This document shows positions 44,249 to 50,602 of a stretch of 64,000 bases of DNA, in pieces. This stretch comes from Halosimplex rubrum (GTDB lineage Archaea > Halobacteriota > Halobacteria > Halobacteriales > Haloarculaceae). The translations under genes were made by a program, and so were the position numbers. Where the stretch lies: the NCBI RefSeq assembly GCF_013415885.1, contig NZ_CP058910.1, forward strand, positions 992,001-1,056,000, read 5' to 3'. The notes below the pieces were generated by a model. It saw only the letters and a program-made list of their open reading frames with translations. It searched no databases and was not told the origin of the DNA. Positions within the stretch are counted from its first letter, which is position 1. Each line of letters opens with the position of its first letter.

Positions 44249-44680
44249 TCAGTCCTCGTCGTCTTCGGTCGTCGTCTTGTCGACGTCCAGCTCCTCGAAG
44301 TAGATCTCCGCGCCGTCCTGGGCGACCTTCTCGGCGAGCACGGCGCACTTGACGCGCATCGGCGAGATGTCGACGCCGAGCATGTCGATCACGTCGTCCC
44401 TGTCCATCTCCGCCAGATCCTCGACGGGCATGCCCGCGAGCTGCTCCGAGAGCATCGAGGCGGAGGCCTGGGAGATGGCGCAGCCGTCGCCGCGGAAGGC
44501 GACGGCGTTGATGACCTCCTCGTCGTCGTCGAGGACGACGTCCATCTCGATGGTATCGCCGCACATCGGGTTCTCGCCGACGTGGGTGAACGTGGCCTCC
44601 TCGAGTTCCCCGTAGTTACGCGGGTTCTTGTAGTGGTCGAGGATCTGCTGTCGGTACATATCCGAGCCGCCGATACCCAT
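44249..44680 (-). CDS. sufU: SufU/NifU-type iron-sulfur scaffold protein
   Basis: A 143-aa homologue of the IscU/SufU family, a scaffold or sulfur-transfer partner in Fe-S cluster assembly. The three conserved cysteines are present: Cys40 and Asp42 in NPMCGD, Cys67 in GDGCAIS and Cys112 in VKCAVL. The N-terminus MYRQQILDHYKNPRNYGELE is diagnostic. The first ATG (44680) is used; MYRQQI at 44659 is an alternative. The matching cysteine desulfurase sufS lies 3 kb away on the same strand, with a J-domain ferredoxin between, so this is an Fe-S locus broken up by other genes. Confidence 0.93.
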   Translation of the reverse strand: MGIGGSDMYRQQILDHYKNPRNYGELEEATFTHVGENPMCGDTIEMDVVLDDDEEVINAVAFRGDGCAISQASASMLSEQLAGMPVEDLAEMDRDDVIDMLGVDISPMRVKCAVLAEKVAQDGAEIYFEELDVDKTTTEDDED

Positions 44681-44813
44681 TGTCGGCCGTGGGTATGCCC
44701 TACCGGCGGAAAAGGATTCCGAGGGAGCGGTTGTCACGCGGCCGACCGATCTCGGAGTATACGTTCTATACCCCCCGATCGGTCGGCGGCTTCGCGGCGT
44801 GAATCTACACCGA

Positions 44814-44823
44814 AGTTTATTAC
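44814..44823 (+). promoter_or_regulatory. TATA-like box of PH-like gene
   Basis: AGTTTATTAC lies about 40 bases before the ATG at 44859. Transcription would start near 44844, leaving a short leader of about 15 bases. Confidence 0.45.
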
Positions 44824-44858
44824 CTACCGTCCCGGAAATACAGCACAACCACAGGGCA

Positions 44859-46106
44859 ATGTTCGACCGAGTAAACGACGCGATATCCGGTGGTGGGTCG
44901 GGGGAGGTCGACGCGGAGCACCTCGACGGGTTGCTGCGCGACGGCGAGGAGCTGCAGCACGCGCTCGCCAACGACGGCACGATCGAGCACACGGAGGACG
45001 GTCGAACGACGACGATCGAATCGGGGGGCGGCCACGGCGCCTACATGCTCGTGACCGACGAGCGGGTGCTCTGGGTGCTGGGCGACCAGCCCGAGACGGC
45101 CGAGATCGCCTTCGAGATGAACCGGCTACAGACCAGCCACGTCCGCAAGGGGCTGATCAACAGCAAGCTGGAGGTCCAGACGTACGACGAGTCGGTCGTC
45201 TTCGACCCCGACGAGGGCGACGCCGAGGAGGCCGAGGACTACATCAGTAACGTCGGCTCGTCGTGGGCGGACATGTCGAGCGCGCTCGCGCAGGCCCGCG
45301 ACGCAATCGCCGCCTACGAGGACGCCTGCGAGCGCGGCGCCGACCCCAACCAGCACGCGCTGGCCGCCCGCTCGCAGTTCTCCCAGGCCCGTCGGTGCGC
45401 CACCCGCGAGGACCGAGCGCCCGAGCAGAAGATCCGCGCCGAGATCCAGGAGGTCGTTACGGAACTGGCTCACACGCGCGTCACCTCGTGGCTCGACCGC
45501 GCACAGTCCCAGTACGAAGCCGTCGCGGCCGCGCTCGATGAGGACCGCTACGGCGACGCCTGCGAGGCGTACGTCGACGCCGCCGAGGCCGTCGAGGAGG
45601 CCCGCGACGTGATCGACGACGTCGACGACGTGCCCGAGGGCGCCGAGAGTCGACTGGACGCCATCGAAGCCGACCTCAGGGAGGCCGGCGAGCGGTTCCT
45701 CGACGACGCCGCCGGTCGTTGCGAGACGGCGCTCGACGCCGAGGAGGCGACCGTCGCCGTCGACGCCTGGGAGGAAGCGTTCGACCGCTACCGCGCCGCC
45801 GCCGACGCCGGCTGGAACGGCCACGCCCCCGTCTCCGAGGACGCGCTGGAGTACCAGCTCACCTGGGTCACCGCCGGCCTGCTGGAGGCGATGAGCGCCC
45901 ACGCCGCCGCGCTCGAACGCGAGGGCGACGGGACCGACGACACCGACGAGGCCGGCGACTACTACGAGGACGCCGAGGCGTGGTTCGAGCGCGCCCGCGA
46001 CCTCGCCGGCGAGCGCCCCCACCACGACGCCGACGACTACGAGGCCGAGCGCGACCGCCTCGAGGAGAAGCGCCTCGAGAGCGCCGGCTGGGAGTTCGGC
46101 GGCTAG
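44859..46106 (+). CDS. Haloarchaeal protein with PH-like N-terminus and helical repeats
   Basis: A 415-aa acidic protein. Residues about 25-110 look like a bacterial-type PH domain (GAYMLVTDERVLWVLGDQPE, then MNRLQTSHVRKGLINSKLEV). Residues 125-415 are almost wholly helical and Ala/Glu/Asp-rich, with TPR-like repeats (AYEDACERGADPNQHALAAR, CEAYVDAAEAVEEARDVI). No transmembrane helix or enzyme motif is visible. Start ATG 44859 follows the TATA-like box; the frame opens 60 bases earlier. It may be a membrane-associated scaffold, but this is inference. It is divergent from sufU. Confidence 0.72.
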   Translation: MFDRVNDAISGGGSGEVDAEHLDGLLRDGEELQHALANDGTIEHTEDGRTTTIESGGGHGAYMLVTDERVLWVLGDQPETAEIAFEMNRLQTSHVRKGLINSKLEVQTYDESVVFDPDEGDAEEAEDYISNVGSSWADMSSALAQARDAIAAYEDACERGADPNQHALAARSQFSQARRCATREDRAPEQKIRAEIQEVVTELAHTRVTSWLDRAQSQYEAVAAALDEDRYGDACEAYVDAAEAVEEARDVIDDVDDVPEGAESRLDAIEADLREAGERFLDDAAGRCETALDAEEATVAVDAWEEAFDRYRAAADAGWNGHAPVSEDALEYQLTWVTAGLLEAMSAHAAALEREGDGTDDTDEAGDYYEDAEAWFERARDLAGERPHHDADDYEAERDRLEEKRLESAGWEFGG

Positions 46107-46107
46107 G

Positions 46108-46875
46108 TCACCGCGCCACGAGGACCACCCGCATCGACTCGACCGTGAGGTCGCTCCCGTCGAATCCGCCGAGCAGCGCCACGTCGTCGAAGCCGCCGCG
46201 TTCACACAGCTCCCGAAGCACCGGCGGGGCGTACAGCCGGTTCTCCCACTCCATGGTGTCGATGTGCTCGTAGCCGTCGCCGACGACATCGAACACGTCC
46301 AGCGTCGTCGAGAACCGGCTCGTCTCCACGTCGAACTCCTGGCGGTAGACGGTCAACCGGTCGTCGTCCTCCGTGACCGTGGCCCCGTCGAGGTCGGCGA
46401 CGAAGGCGTCGCGGTTGGACTGCTCGACCACGAGGGCGCCGTCCTCGGCCAGCAACTCGCGGGCGTCGGCCAGGACCGCCTCGTCGGTCTCGCGGCCGTA
46501 GTAGCCCAGCGAGTTCCAGAACACTGTGACCAGGTCGTAGCTCCCCGACAGCTCGTCCAGTTCGCGCATGTCGCGGTGGTGGAACTCCGTCCGGTCGGCC
46601 ACGCCCCGGTCGCTCGCCCGCTGGCGCGCCCGGTCGAGGAACGGCTCGGAGAAGTCCAGTCCCTCGGCCTCGACCCCGCGGTCGGCCAGCGCGAGGGCGT
46701 GGCGGCCGACGCCGCAGGCCACGTCGAGCGACCGATCGGGCTCGCAGTCGAACTCGGCGGCCAGCAGGTCGAGCAGGTCGGCGACCTCCGCGTCGGCCGC
46801 CGCGAACATGTCCTCGAAGTGCTCCGCGAACAGGTCCGCCTGGTCGCGAAACAGGCGGTCGGCCCAGTGGCTCAT
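46108..46875 (-). CDS. Class I SAM-dependent methyltransferase
   Basis: A 255-aa methyltransferase starting MSHWADRLFRDQADLFAEHF at 46875. Motif I is SLDVACGVGRHALALADRGV, the acidic loop is EGLDFSEPFLDRAR, and FHHRDMRELDELSGSYDLVT and TVFWNSLGYYG follow. The N-terminal helix and the post-motif LTVYRQEFDVETSRF are typical of the archaeal Methyltransf_25 group. Substrate unknown. It ends 2 bases from the convergent PH-like gene and lies downstream of the J-domain ferredoxin on the same strand. Confidence 0.84.
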   Translation of the reverse strand: MSHWADRLFRDQADLFAEHFEDMFAAADAEVADLLDLLAAEFDCEPDRSLDVACGVGRHALALADRGVEAEGLDFSEPFLDRARQRASDRGVADRTEFHHRDMRELDELSGSYDLVTVFWNSLGYYGRETDEAVLADARELLAEDGALVVEQSNRDAFVADLDGATVTEDDDRLTVYRQEFDVETSRFSTTLDVFDVVGDGYEHIDTMEWENRLYAPPVLRELCERGGFDDVALLGGFDGSDLTVESMRVVLVAR

Positions 46876-46935
46876 GGCCGGTCGGTCGGCCCCGCCCGGC
46901 AAAAGTCCGGGGGCGCGTGGGATCGGGTCGCGCGG

Positions 46936-47658
46936 TCAGTCGTCGTGGGCCTGCTCGAACGGTCGCGGCGGCAACAGCAGGTCCTCCAGTTCGGGCATCG
47001 ACTTGACGTTGTAGACGACCTGCAGTTCGTCGGTGACGGGCATCCCGTTGCAGGAGAGCTGGAACCCCTGGTCGAGCATCTCCTGGGGGAGGACGTGGTC
47101 GACGCGGGTCCGCACGTCGCCCTCCAGCACGATGATCGCGCAGTTCGCGCAGGCGCCGCCGCGGCAGGCGAAGGGCCACGCGAACCCGTGGCGCTCGGCG
47201 GCTTCCAGCAGCGACTCGCGCGGCCGGACCCAGAACTGGCCGTAGTCCTCGCGGTCGAGCCCGCCGTCGGCGGCGGTCTCCATGAGGTCCGGGTCGTCGA
47301 GGTCCCACCCGCGGTCGTCGAGCACCTCGTAGTTGAGGTACTCGACCCGACAGCGCTGCTCGCGGCGGGGTTGCTCCCCGTTCTCGGCGGGCGACGCCGC
47401 GGCTTCGGCCCGCTCGGCCGGCGATCGGTCTTCGCCCCCGTCCCCGTCCTCGCCGACCGCTTCGCTACCGCCGTCTTTGAGTTCCTCGTAGGCGGCCTTG
47501 ACGAGCTGGAACTCGCGGGCCGACCCCCCGTGGTCGGGATGGGCGTCCTTGATCCGCTCCCGGTAGGCCTCCTTGATCTCCGCCTCGTCGGCACCCGGCT
47601 CGACCGAGAGAACGTCGAACGGCGACTCCACGCGCGCCCCTAGCGGCAAGAGGCGCAT
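46936..47658 (-). CDS. J-domain / 2Fe-2S ferredoxin fusion
   Basis: A 240-aa fusion. Residues about 12-62 are a J-domain (FDVLSVEPGADEAEIKEAYR, with the HPD motif at 40-42 in DAHPDHGG), the module that stimulates Hsp70/DnaK. A Glu/Ala/Gly linker (about 65-100) leads to a haloarchaeal plant-type ferredoxin (EYLNYEVLDDRGWDL onward), with cluster ligands Cys165, Cys170 and Cys173 (CRGGACANC) and Cys203 (LSCNG). The domain is longer than plant ferredoxin because of the usual halophile insert. The ATG at 47658 is preferred; an upstream ATG at 47670 lies in hairpin copy D. Its place between sufS and sufU suggests a role in Fe-S assembly. Confidence 0.88.
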   Translation of the reverse strand: MRLLPLGARVESPFDVLSVEPGADEAEIKEAYRERIKDAHPDHGGSAREFQLVKAAYEELKDGGSEAVGEDGDGGEDRSPAERAEAAASPAENGEQPRREQRCRVEYLNYEVLDDRGWDLDDPDLMETAADGGLDREDYGQFWVRPRESLLEAAERHGFAWPFACRGGACANCAIIVLEGDVRTRVDHVLPQEMLDQGFQLSCNGMPVTDELQVVYNVKSMPELEDLLLPPRPFEQAHDD

Positions 47659-47667
47659 AAACCCCTC

Positions 47668-47850: not shown

Positions 47851-49092
47851 CTACGCGAACAGCTCTCGCGCCGCGTCCAGCGCCTCGACCAGTTTATCGA
47901 CTTCTTCCTCGGTGTTGTAGATGTAGAAACTCGCCCGGGTCGAGGAGGGGATGCCGAGCTTGTCGTGCAGCGGCTGGGTGCAGTGGTCGCCGGCCCGCAC
48001 CGCGACGGCGAAGTCGTTGAGGATCTCCGAAGCGTCGTGGGCGTGGACGTTCCCGAGGTTGAACGACACCAGCGCCGCCCGGTCGTCGCCGGGCGGCCCC
48101 AGAATCGTGATGTCGTCGAACTCCGAGAGGCGGTCGTAGGCGTATTCGGCGAGCGCCTCGCCGTGTCGCTGGACGTTCTCCATGCCGATCTCGTCGAGGT
48201 AGTCGCAGGCTTCGGCCAGCGCGATACCCTGGGAGATCGGCGGGGTGCCCGCCTCGAACTTCCAGGGGAGTTCGTGCCACGTCGACTCCTCGAAGGTGAC
48301 CTTCTCGATCATCATCCCGCCGTAGAGGTACGGCTGCATCTCCTCCAGGAGGTGCTCTTTCCCGTAGAGGACGCCGATACCCGTCGGCCCGCACATCTTG
48401 TGGCCCGAGAAGGCGAAGAAGTCCGCGTCCATCTCCTTCACGTCGACGGGCATGTGCGGGACGGACTGGGCGCCGTCGATAAAGCAGAGCGCGTCGTGGT
48501 CGTGGGCGATATCGGCGATCTCCGAGGCGGGATTGATCGTGCCCAGCGTGTTCGAGACGTGGACGGCGCTGACCATCTCCGTGTCGTCGGTGACGAGCTC
48601 GCGCAGATGGTCCATGTCGAGGTAGCCCTCGTCGTCGACGCGGGCGTACTTGACCGTGGCGCCGGTCTTCTTGGCGATCTGCTGCCACGTCACGAGGGCG
48701 GCGTGGTGTTCCATCTCGGTCATGACCACCTCGTCGCCCGGTCCCAGCTCCGCGAGGCCCCACGCGTAGGCGACGGTGTTCATCGCCTCGGTCGTGTTCT
48801 TCCCGAAGACGACCTCTTCCCGGCCGTCGGCGCCGACGAAGTCGGCGACGCGGTCGTGGGCGTCCTCGTAGGCGATCGAGGCCTCCTGGCTCAGCTGGTG
48901 GAGCCCGCGGTGGACGTTGGCGTTGGTCGTCCGGTAGTAGTCGGCGATGGCGTCGACGACCCGGTCGGGCGTCTGGCTGGTCGCCGCGTTATCGAGATAC
49001 ACCAGCTGCTCCCCCGCGAACTCCCGTTCGAGGATCGGAAAGTCCCCGCGGATGCGCTCGACGTCGAGCGACTCCGGTTCTGACACTTCCAT
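47851..49092 (-). CDS. sufS: SufS cysteine desulfurase
   Basis: A 413-aa PLP enzyme (class V aminotransferase fold) that removes sulfur from cysteine for Fe-S cluster assembly. The PLP lysine is Lys232 in FAFSGHKMCGPTG; the catalytic cysteine is Cys371 in RAGDHCTQPLH. N-terminal YLDNAATSQTPDRVVDAI and TEMEHHAALVTWQQIAKKTG are SufS signatures (class II desulfurase type). Length is normal. Hairpin copy D and the J-domain ferredoxin follow on the same strand. High confidence. Confidence 0.96.
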   Translation of the reverse strand: MEVSEPESLDVERIRGDFPILEREFAGEQLVYLDNAATSQTPDRVVDAIADYYRTTNANVHRGLHQLSQEASIAYEDAHDRVADFVGADGREEVVFGKNTTEAMNTVAYAWGLAELGPGDEVVMTEMEHHAALVTWQQIAKKTGATVKYARVDDEGYLDMDHLRELVTDDTEMVSAVHVSNTLGTINPASEIADIAHDHDALCFIDGAQSVPHMPVDVKEMDADFFAFSGHKMCGPTGIGVLYGKEHLLEEMQPYLYGGMMIEKVTFEESTWHELPWKFEAGTPPISQGIALAEACDYLDEIGMENVQRHGEALAEYAYDRLSEFDDITILGPPGDDRAALVSFNLGNVHAHDASEILNDFAVAVRAGDHCTQPLHDKLGIPSSTRASFYIYNTEEEVDKLVEALDAARELFA

Positions 49093-49579: not shown

Positions 49580-49870
49580 TTACATCCAGAGCAGCTGCGC
49601 GTGGCGCGTGCCGTCGAGGTCGAGGACGTTCTCCTCGTCGACGAAGCCGTGTTCGACGGCCAGATCGACGGTCTCCTCGCCGACGAGGTTGGCGGTCGTA
49701 CAGCGCTTGAGGCTGTCGACCACTTCCTCCTCGCTGGCCTCATCGCCGTCGTAGAAGTCGGGTTCGACGGTCAGCGAGACGGAGCCGTCCTCGTAGGTCT
49801 CGCCCAGGTCCTCGGGGTCGCAGACCGAGACGAGCAGCCCCTCGTCGGTGTCCCGTTCGTTGAGCAACAT
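49580..49870 (-). CDS. DUF424 family protein
   Basis: A 96-aa archaeal protein matching DUF424: MLLNERDTDEGLLVSVCDPE, then LGETYEDGSVSLTVEPDFY and a C-terminal ENVLDLDGTRHAQLLWM. It is a compact alpha/beta protein of unknown function, widespread in archaea. The ATG lies 3 bases beyond the stop of the TPR gene upstream on the same strand, so the two are cotranscribed. No catalytic motif is evident. Confidence 0.88.
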   Translation of the reverse strand: MLLNERDTDEGLLVSVCDPEDLGETYEDGSVSLTVEPDFYDGDEASEEEVVDSLKRCTTANLVGEETVDLAVEHGFVDEENVLDLDGTRHAQLLWM

Positions 49871-49873
49871 CGC

Positions 49874-50602
49874 CTACTCCATCATCTCCGCCTCGGCCTC
49901 CTGGCGGAGTTCGTCGGCCTCCTCGGCCAGCTCCTCGGCGCGGTCGTCTTCGCCGAGTTCCTCGAGGGCGCGGGCCTTCTCTTCGATGATCTCGGCGTTG
50001 CGAAAGCCCAGGCGGATGGCGTTGTCGAAGGCGTTGCGGGCGTCCTCGGCGAGGCCGCGCTCCAGCAGGAAGAAGCCGCGGTTGTACCAGCCCTGGGCGA
50101 AGCGGGGGTCGACCTCGACGGCGCGCTCGGCGTGTTCGAGCGCCTGCTCGGTGCGGCCGGACTCCCAGAACGCGAAGGCGAGGTTCGTCTCGGCCGTCGC
50201 GGCGTGCTCGGAGTCGTCGTCGATGTTGAGCGCCTCGCGATAGGCGCCGATGGCGGCGTCCCACTCCTCCATCTCGGCGTGGGCGGCGCCCTTGTTCGTC
50301 CAGGCCTCCTGCTCTATCTTCTCGTCCTCGGCGAAGCGGGCCGCCCGTTCGAGGGCGTCGGTGGCCTGCTCGTAGCGGTTGATGCCGATGTAGCTCAGCC
50401 CCACGTCGAGGAGTTGGTCGGCGTCGACCTCGTCCGAGGCGAGGTTGCGCTCGTCCAGTTCGTCGGTGAGCACGCGCGAGTCGACGGGGTCGACCTTGTT
50501 CGTGTCGACCTGCAGCTCGGGCGGATCGATGTCGAACCCCTCGTAGGGGTCGCCGAAGCCCTGCCCGGAGGAGAACTCGTGGTCGTCCCGGTCGTCAGTC
50601 AT
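49874..50602 (-). CDS. TPR repeat protein
   Basis: A 242-aa soluble protein. After an acidic N-terminal region (about 1-60), residues 65-225 hold about five tetratricopeptide repeats. Examples are QLLDVGLSYIGINRYEQATD, EAWTNKGAAHAEMEEWDAAI, TNLAFAFWESGRTEQALEHA and GWYNRGFFLLERGLAEDARN. TPRs mediate protein contacts. It precedes DUF424 in the same operon with a 3-base gap, which may point to a shared complex. The specific partner is unknown. Confidence 0.9.
   Translation of the reverse strand: MTDDRDDHEFSSGQGFGDPYEGFDIDPPELQVDTNKVDPVDSRVLTDELDERNLASDEVDADQLLDVGLSYIGINRYEQATDALERAARFAEDEKIEQEAWTNKGAAHAEMEEWDAAIGAYREALNIDDDSEHAATAETNLAFAFWESGRTEQALEHAERAVEVDPRFAQGWYNRGFFLLERGLAEDARNAFDNAIRLGFRNAEIIEEKARALEELGEDDRAEELAEEADELRQEAEAEMME

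Follow-up and report, generated by a model that had tools for sequence, protein, structure and literature searches.

A J domain fused to a plant-type 2Fe–2S ferredoxin in most Halobacteria, a candidate client-specific DnaK co-chaperone

The window (the whole 64,000-nucleotide stretch of DNA analyzed here) encodes a protein, denoted J-Fer, in which a J domain and a plant-type 2Fe–2S ferredoxin domain are joined in one chain and followed by a short conserved tail. J-Fer is a real, old and little-noticed gene of most salt-loving archaea. Judging from its sequence, it may be a class C (type III) J-protein and act as a client-specific co-chaperone of DnaK, with the client docked by the ferredoxin domain and the tail; we favor this reading tentatively, at a little short of even confidence.

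Domain architecture and predicted structure of J-Fer

The likeliest coding sequence spans positions 46936..47631 of the window on the minus strand (GTG start, 231 aa); residue numbers below follow the longer open frame (47658..46936, minus strand, 240 aa), which opens with ATG 47658. The sequence-only reading, that one polypeptide carries both a J domain and a ferredoxin, is borne out by matches over the cut-off for each, and the recurrence of the pair across genomes means that it is no frame artifact. The J domain (residues 13–62, 47473..47622, minus strand) scores 44.2 bits against PF00226 (cut-off 27.8, E = 2.1e-11), which is the sole DnaJ-related Pfam match; the Gly/Phe, zinc-finger and C-terminal DnaJ domains are missing, as in class C (type III) J-proteins. 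Its HPD motif (residues 40–42), G44, G45, F50 and A56 are invariant in all 54 aligned sequences, and the basic helix II residues R33 and R35 are conserved in at least 90% of them. The ferredoxin domain (residues 104–227, 46978..47349, minus strand) scores 162.2 bits against the NCBIfam model NF041393, "ferredoxin Fer" (curated cut-off 150), with further matches to Pfam Fer2 (PF00111, residues 144–204) and to the fdx_plant model TIGR02008. Its four cluster cysteines, C165, C170, C173 and C203, are spaced CX4CX2CX29C and are invariant in 25/25 and again in 54/54 aligned relatives.

In an AlphaFold2 model built from 54 relatives both domains reach pLDDT values around 90, the J domain as three helices, with the chain ends and linker residues 65–97 disordered (pLDDT < 50 for the latter). 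This acidic linker (residues 64–103, 47350..47469, minus strand) differs widely in length within the family. The top Foldseek match is the Haloarcula ferredoxin 1doi (TM 0.93 of target), 1doi and 1e10 being the best structural matches, and the closest solved structures by sequence are likewise the Halobacterium and Haloarcula ferredoxins, at ~50% identity (1doi/1e10). The ferredoxin domain thus shares its fold and cysteines with the haloarchaeal Fer family (NF041393; 1doi, 1e0z). Unlike stand-alone Fer, which ends in ...LQNRVI, J-Fer possesses the J domain, reads CRGGACANC for CRAGACANC in the cluster loop, and carries a C-terminal tail with the core LPPRPFEQA. The tail, LPPRPFEQAHDD (residues 229–240, 46939..46974, minus strand), takes the family form LPPxPFExA: L229 and P230 are invariant, F234 is found in 51 of 54 sequences and A237 in 47 of 54. 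Its mean commonest-residue frequency (0.73) matches those of the ferredoxin (0.74) and J (0.71) domains, although residues 231–240 are mostly unordered in the model (pLDDT about 50). Conservation equal to that of the folded domains in so unordered a segment suggests that the LPPxPFExA tail is a docking motif.

Distribution and ancestry

Every one of the 391 Halobacteria genomes sampled has some match; about 280 carry the fusion (~279 fusion-level matches), whereas ~112 have stand-alone Fer or less. Fusion-level here denotes a best E below about 1e-43, counted by hand, with one Fer-only genome just under the line excluded; the line was verified by matched range in 43 genomes, in which the weak cases of one genus proved to be true fusions and the others Fer alone. 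The absences are concentrated in one family (f3). Recurrence of the fusion in haloarchaeal annotation had been foreseen from the sequence, and it does recur, under the RefSeq name "ferredoxin Fer"—a name that masks the presence of a J domain in the records of haloarchaeal genomes. No J-Fer was found outside Halobacteria among some 200 other genomes of a phylum sample; all 42 of its 247 genomes with a match at 1e-10 belong to the window's own order.

A tree built on 128 ferredoxin domains sets J-Fer apart from stand-alone Fer as one clade on a 100/100 branch, and on these sequences the fusion is of single origin. The tree includes 25 stand-alone Fer sequences, mostly from genomes without J-Fer, and is rooted at its midpoint, which leaves the derived side unproven. 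Stand-alone Fer co-exists with J-Fer, and genomes lacking the fusion gave no sign that it had split into a J gene and a Fer gene, retaining an ordinary stand-alone Fer. Some genomes hold two J-Fer copies that belong to separate branches of the tree (the locus pairs L046/L077, L048/L092 and L078/L099), and copies occur on plasmids of Halocatena, Haloprofundus, Halobaculum and Haloferax.

The constituent domains were also seen in other settings. A protein of ~410 aa from family f3 (L161:738-1967, minus strand) combines the haloarchaeal ferredoxin domain with two universal stress protein (Usp) domains, and Fer matches fall in frames of similar length (~410 aa) in several further genomes of that family. 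At L160:683-1624 (plus strand; genus g20, family f4), a J-Fer-like ferredoxin with the loop CRGGACSNC and an LRLPSP tail has, at the N-terminus and in the J domain's place, a region that resembles an HTH (HTH_23, under the cut-off). Finally, in a genome without J-Fer, L150:1956-2567 (plus strand) encodes a J domain 63% identical to that of J-Fer, placed C-terminally behind another region.

Comparison with known J-protein–ferredoxin systems

DnaJ-Fer proteins, with a ferredoxin bearing the motif CXXCXXC, are known from plants and Thaumarchaeota; a 2012 survey recorded J–ferredoxin fusions only from Viridiplantae and Thaumarchaeota, with Halobacteria unreported (PMC3564930). Among them, the algal proteins CDJ3–5, which possess a ferredoxin domain, interact with HSP70B and so offer a precedent for a co-chaperone of this build (PMC9407819, PMC3564930); according to a review they activate the HSP70B ATPase and recruit HSP70B to chloroplast Fe–S biogenesis (PMC9407819), and the 2012 paper regards their precise function as unsettled (PMC3564930). 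Redox-active clusters and HSP70B interaction are on record for CDJ3/4 (PMC3564930, PMC9407819). J-Fer shares with CDJ3–5 and DnaJ-Fer the order of an N-terminal J domain and then a ferredoxin domain, but its ferredoxin is the plant-type Fer2 domain of the haloarchaeal Fer family, with CX4CX2CX29C in place of CXXCXXC. Membership of the plant and thaumarchaeal DnaJ-Fer group was rejected on this difference in ferredoxin type, which makes an independent haloarchaeal fusion most likely; J–ferredoxin fusions seem to have arisen at least twice, with clusters of different types. A literature search that was thin on subscription journals turned up no account of the fusion in haloarchaea.

The second comparison is with HscB and Fdx of the ISC system, to which the sequence-only reading had likened J-Fer. 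A J domain, a 2Fe–2S ferredoxin and, in this genome, a nearby IscU-like gene make up the resemblance, which does not extend further. Fdx of the ISC/adrenodoxin type has the cysteine spacing CX5CX2CX(about 36)C, whereas that of J-Fer is plant-type (4, 2, 29), and no NCBIfam model for Isc Fdx matched J-Fer at E 0.001. HSCB_C (PF07743), the domain with which HscB binds its scaffold, is absent from J-Fer in the Pfam scan, the LPPVK motif of HscB's scaffold partner is absent from SufU (which has ISPMRVKC instead), the neighborhood is unconserved, and the genome encodes a single HSP70 with no specialized HscA. An HscB-like identity was therefore rejected.

Proposed function

This genome encodes a complete DnaK, as does each of the 56 genomes checked. 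Together with the invariant HPD motif and the invariant ferredoxin site, this universality suggests that J-Fer assists DnaK and binds its client by means of the ferredoxin part, so that the DnaK half of the earlier proposal, a DnaK-linked Fe–S maturation factor, holds up (HPD in 54/54), whereas the Fe–S-assembly half is not supported. In the mechanism that we propose, the J domain would dock on the cell's DnaK and trigger its ATPase, while the ferredoxin domain, presumably loaded with its 2Fe–2S cluster, would bind a specific client through the ferredoxin face and the conserved tail, thereby bringing DnaK to that client. The client would most likely be a redox or Fe–S protein that recognizes plant-type ferredoxins. 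Neither gene order nor the few phyletic profiles tried (SufU, DnaK, P450 and fatty acid desaturase) singled one out: P450 occurs in 23/26 genomes with J-Fer versus 21/30 without (P = 0.11), and fatty acid desaturase gave no match over the cut-off in the genomes tried. The bolder version of this proposal, a class-wide haloarchaeal system in which the redox or cluster state of the ferredoxin directs DnaK to a dedicated client via the LPPxPFExA tail, and which would be the second co-chaperone of this design to arise, independently of the first and around another type of cluster, we consider unlikely as a whole. Haloarchaeal genetics (Haloferax, Halobacterium) make the need of such a chaperone recruiter for its ferredoxin directly testable.

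The ferredoxin domain may also be a simple electron carrier. J-Fer would then serve one oxidoreductase, with the J domain only aiding, together with DnaK, the folding of the partner or the ferredoxin, or cluster loading. The intact domain, with its four cysteines and its ~50% identity to 1doi/1e10, is consistent with such a role, and GG for AG in the cluster loop and the extra tail suggest a changed partner; but the co-existing stand-alone Fer could carry electrons itself, and J-Fer does not co-vary with the P450 or desaturase partners tried, which leaves this alternative unlikely.

Quite unlikely, in our estimate, is a redox-sensing co-chaperone, in which reduction, oxidation or loss of the cluster would switch access of the J domain to DnaK and thereby tune chaperone activity under oxidative or iron stress. 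Such a sensor would suit a chain whose J domain is tethered flexibly to a domain with a cluster at its surface, and the other haloarchaeal proteins that pair the ferredoxin domain with Usp domains or an HTH-like region hint at regulatory uses; the great variation in linker length, however, argues against a rigid intramolecular switch.

Start codon and promoter

The start and promoter of the client-specific co-chaperone candidate were assigned from the upstream regions of 67 relatives, with codon 10 of the longer frame as the common reference point (A/T background near 35%). This codon is GTG in 45/67 and ATG in 18/67 placed relatives (63/67 together), and several relatives have in-frame stops between it and a conserved TATA box. 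The first nine residues of the longer frame are unconserved and not confidently folded (pLDDT < 50 in AlphaFold2), and ATG 47658 lies inside the TATA box itself (TTTATG); J-Fer therefore probably starts at GTG 47631. Relative to this GTG, the TATA box TTTAT (47657..47661, minus strand) occupies −30..−26 and a WW element (47641..47642, minus strand) −11/−10. A/T is found in 81–96% of the 67 upstream regions at −29..−26 (96% at −28, 94% at −27) and in 88% and 79% at −11/−10, the two elements keeping constant spacing across the family. They match the haloarchaeal promoter consensus of a TATA box and a −10 WW element, in organisms in which most transcripts are leaderless and some begin with GUG (PMC4983044). 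On this sequence evidence J-Fer appears to be leaderless, with its own promoter. As the SUF-adjacent members retain this promoter, J-Fer appears to be transcribed independently there too, and read-through from sufS may also occur.

Genomic neighborhood and the SUF question

Upstream of J-Fer, 219 bp separate it from the stop of the cysteine desulfurase gene sufS (47851..49092, minus strand; TIGR01979, 560.9 bits). Downstream lie a SAM-dependent methyltransferase gene (46108..46902, minus strand; PF13649; start perhaps ATG 46875), which also follows J-Fer in the Halosimplex loci and the MAG loci L036 and L064, then a gene for a 435-aa protein with no Pfam or NCBIfam match (44799..46106, plus strand), and then sufU (44249..44659, minus strand; TIGR01994, 107 bits, cut-off 92.5). 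The placing of J-Fer between same-strand sufS and sufU genes is thus literally correct, but sufU starts ~2.3 kb away, beyond two genes, one of them on the opposite strand; J-Fer has its own promoter, and J-Fer and sufU form no operon.

Conservation of this neighborhood across Halobacteria, the check that the sequence-only reading had named in advance, was not found. J-Fer has sufS or sufU no more than 8 kb away in 7/80 relatives (four Halosimplex and three MAGs), the 80 being the closest ones and hence biased toward the window; the sufS match in L102, at 28% identity, was left uncounted. All of the SUF-linked members fall in one 13-row subclade of the 128-domain tree, alongside unlinked Halomicrobium and another MAG, and among genomes in which both positions were given, J-Fer and SufU are close only in two Halosimplex genomes. 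Moreover, SufU was found in 48/48 genomes, among them 30 that lack J-Fer; the SUF system can therefore do without J-Fer. SUF operon membership was accordingly rejected: the adjacency is confined to a handful of species and does not tell us what J-Fer does. That J-Fer is nonetheless a SUF-pathway assembly factor, linking DnaK to SufU or SufBCD and supplying electrons as HscB and Fdx in one chain, is very doubtful given these results and the lack of Isc-type features, for all that sufS adjoins it and sufU is near in Halosimplex and three MAGs, that SufBD and DnaK are encoded in this genome, and that the plastid J-proteins DJA5/6 serve SUF (PMC9407819).

No other conserved neighbor emerged: clustering of ORFs over the 80 loci, with crude ORF calling that missed J-Fer itself at several of them, gave small clusters spanning at most 9 loci, apart from one promiscuous cluster in 20/80 loci at scattered distances. 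In other genera J-Fer adjoins genes for BioY, SRP54, nucleoside phosphorylase, a pterin-binding enzyme and an AMP-binding enzyme, which are mutually unrelated.

Two observations concern the SUF genes themselves. Genes for one DUF424 and one TPR protein (window positions 49580-50602, minus strand) adjoin sufS in the three SUF-linked MAGs, and also in H. carlsbadense, whose sufS is no longer beside J-Fer; they are more constant neighbors of sufS than J-Fer is. The 435-aa protein (44799-46106, plus strand) is acidic and is conserved beside sufU in Halosimplex and one MAG.
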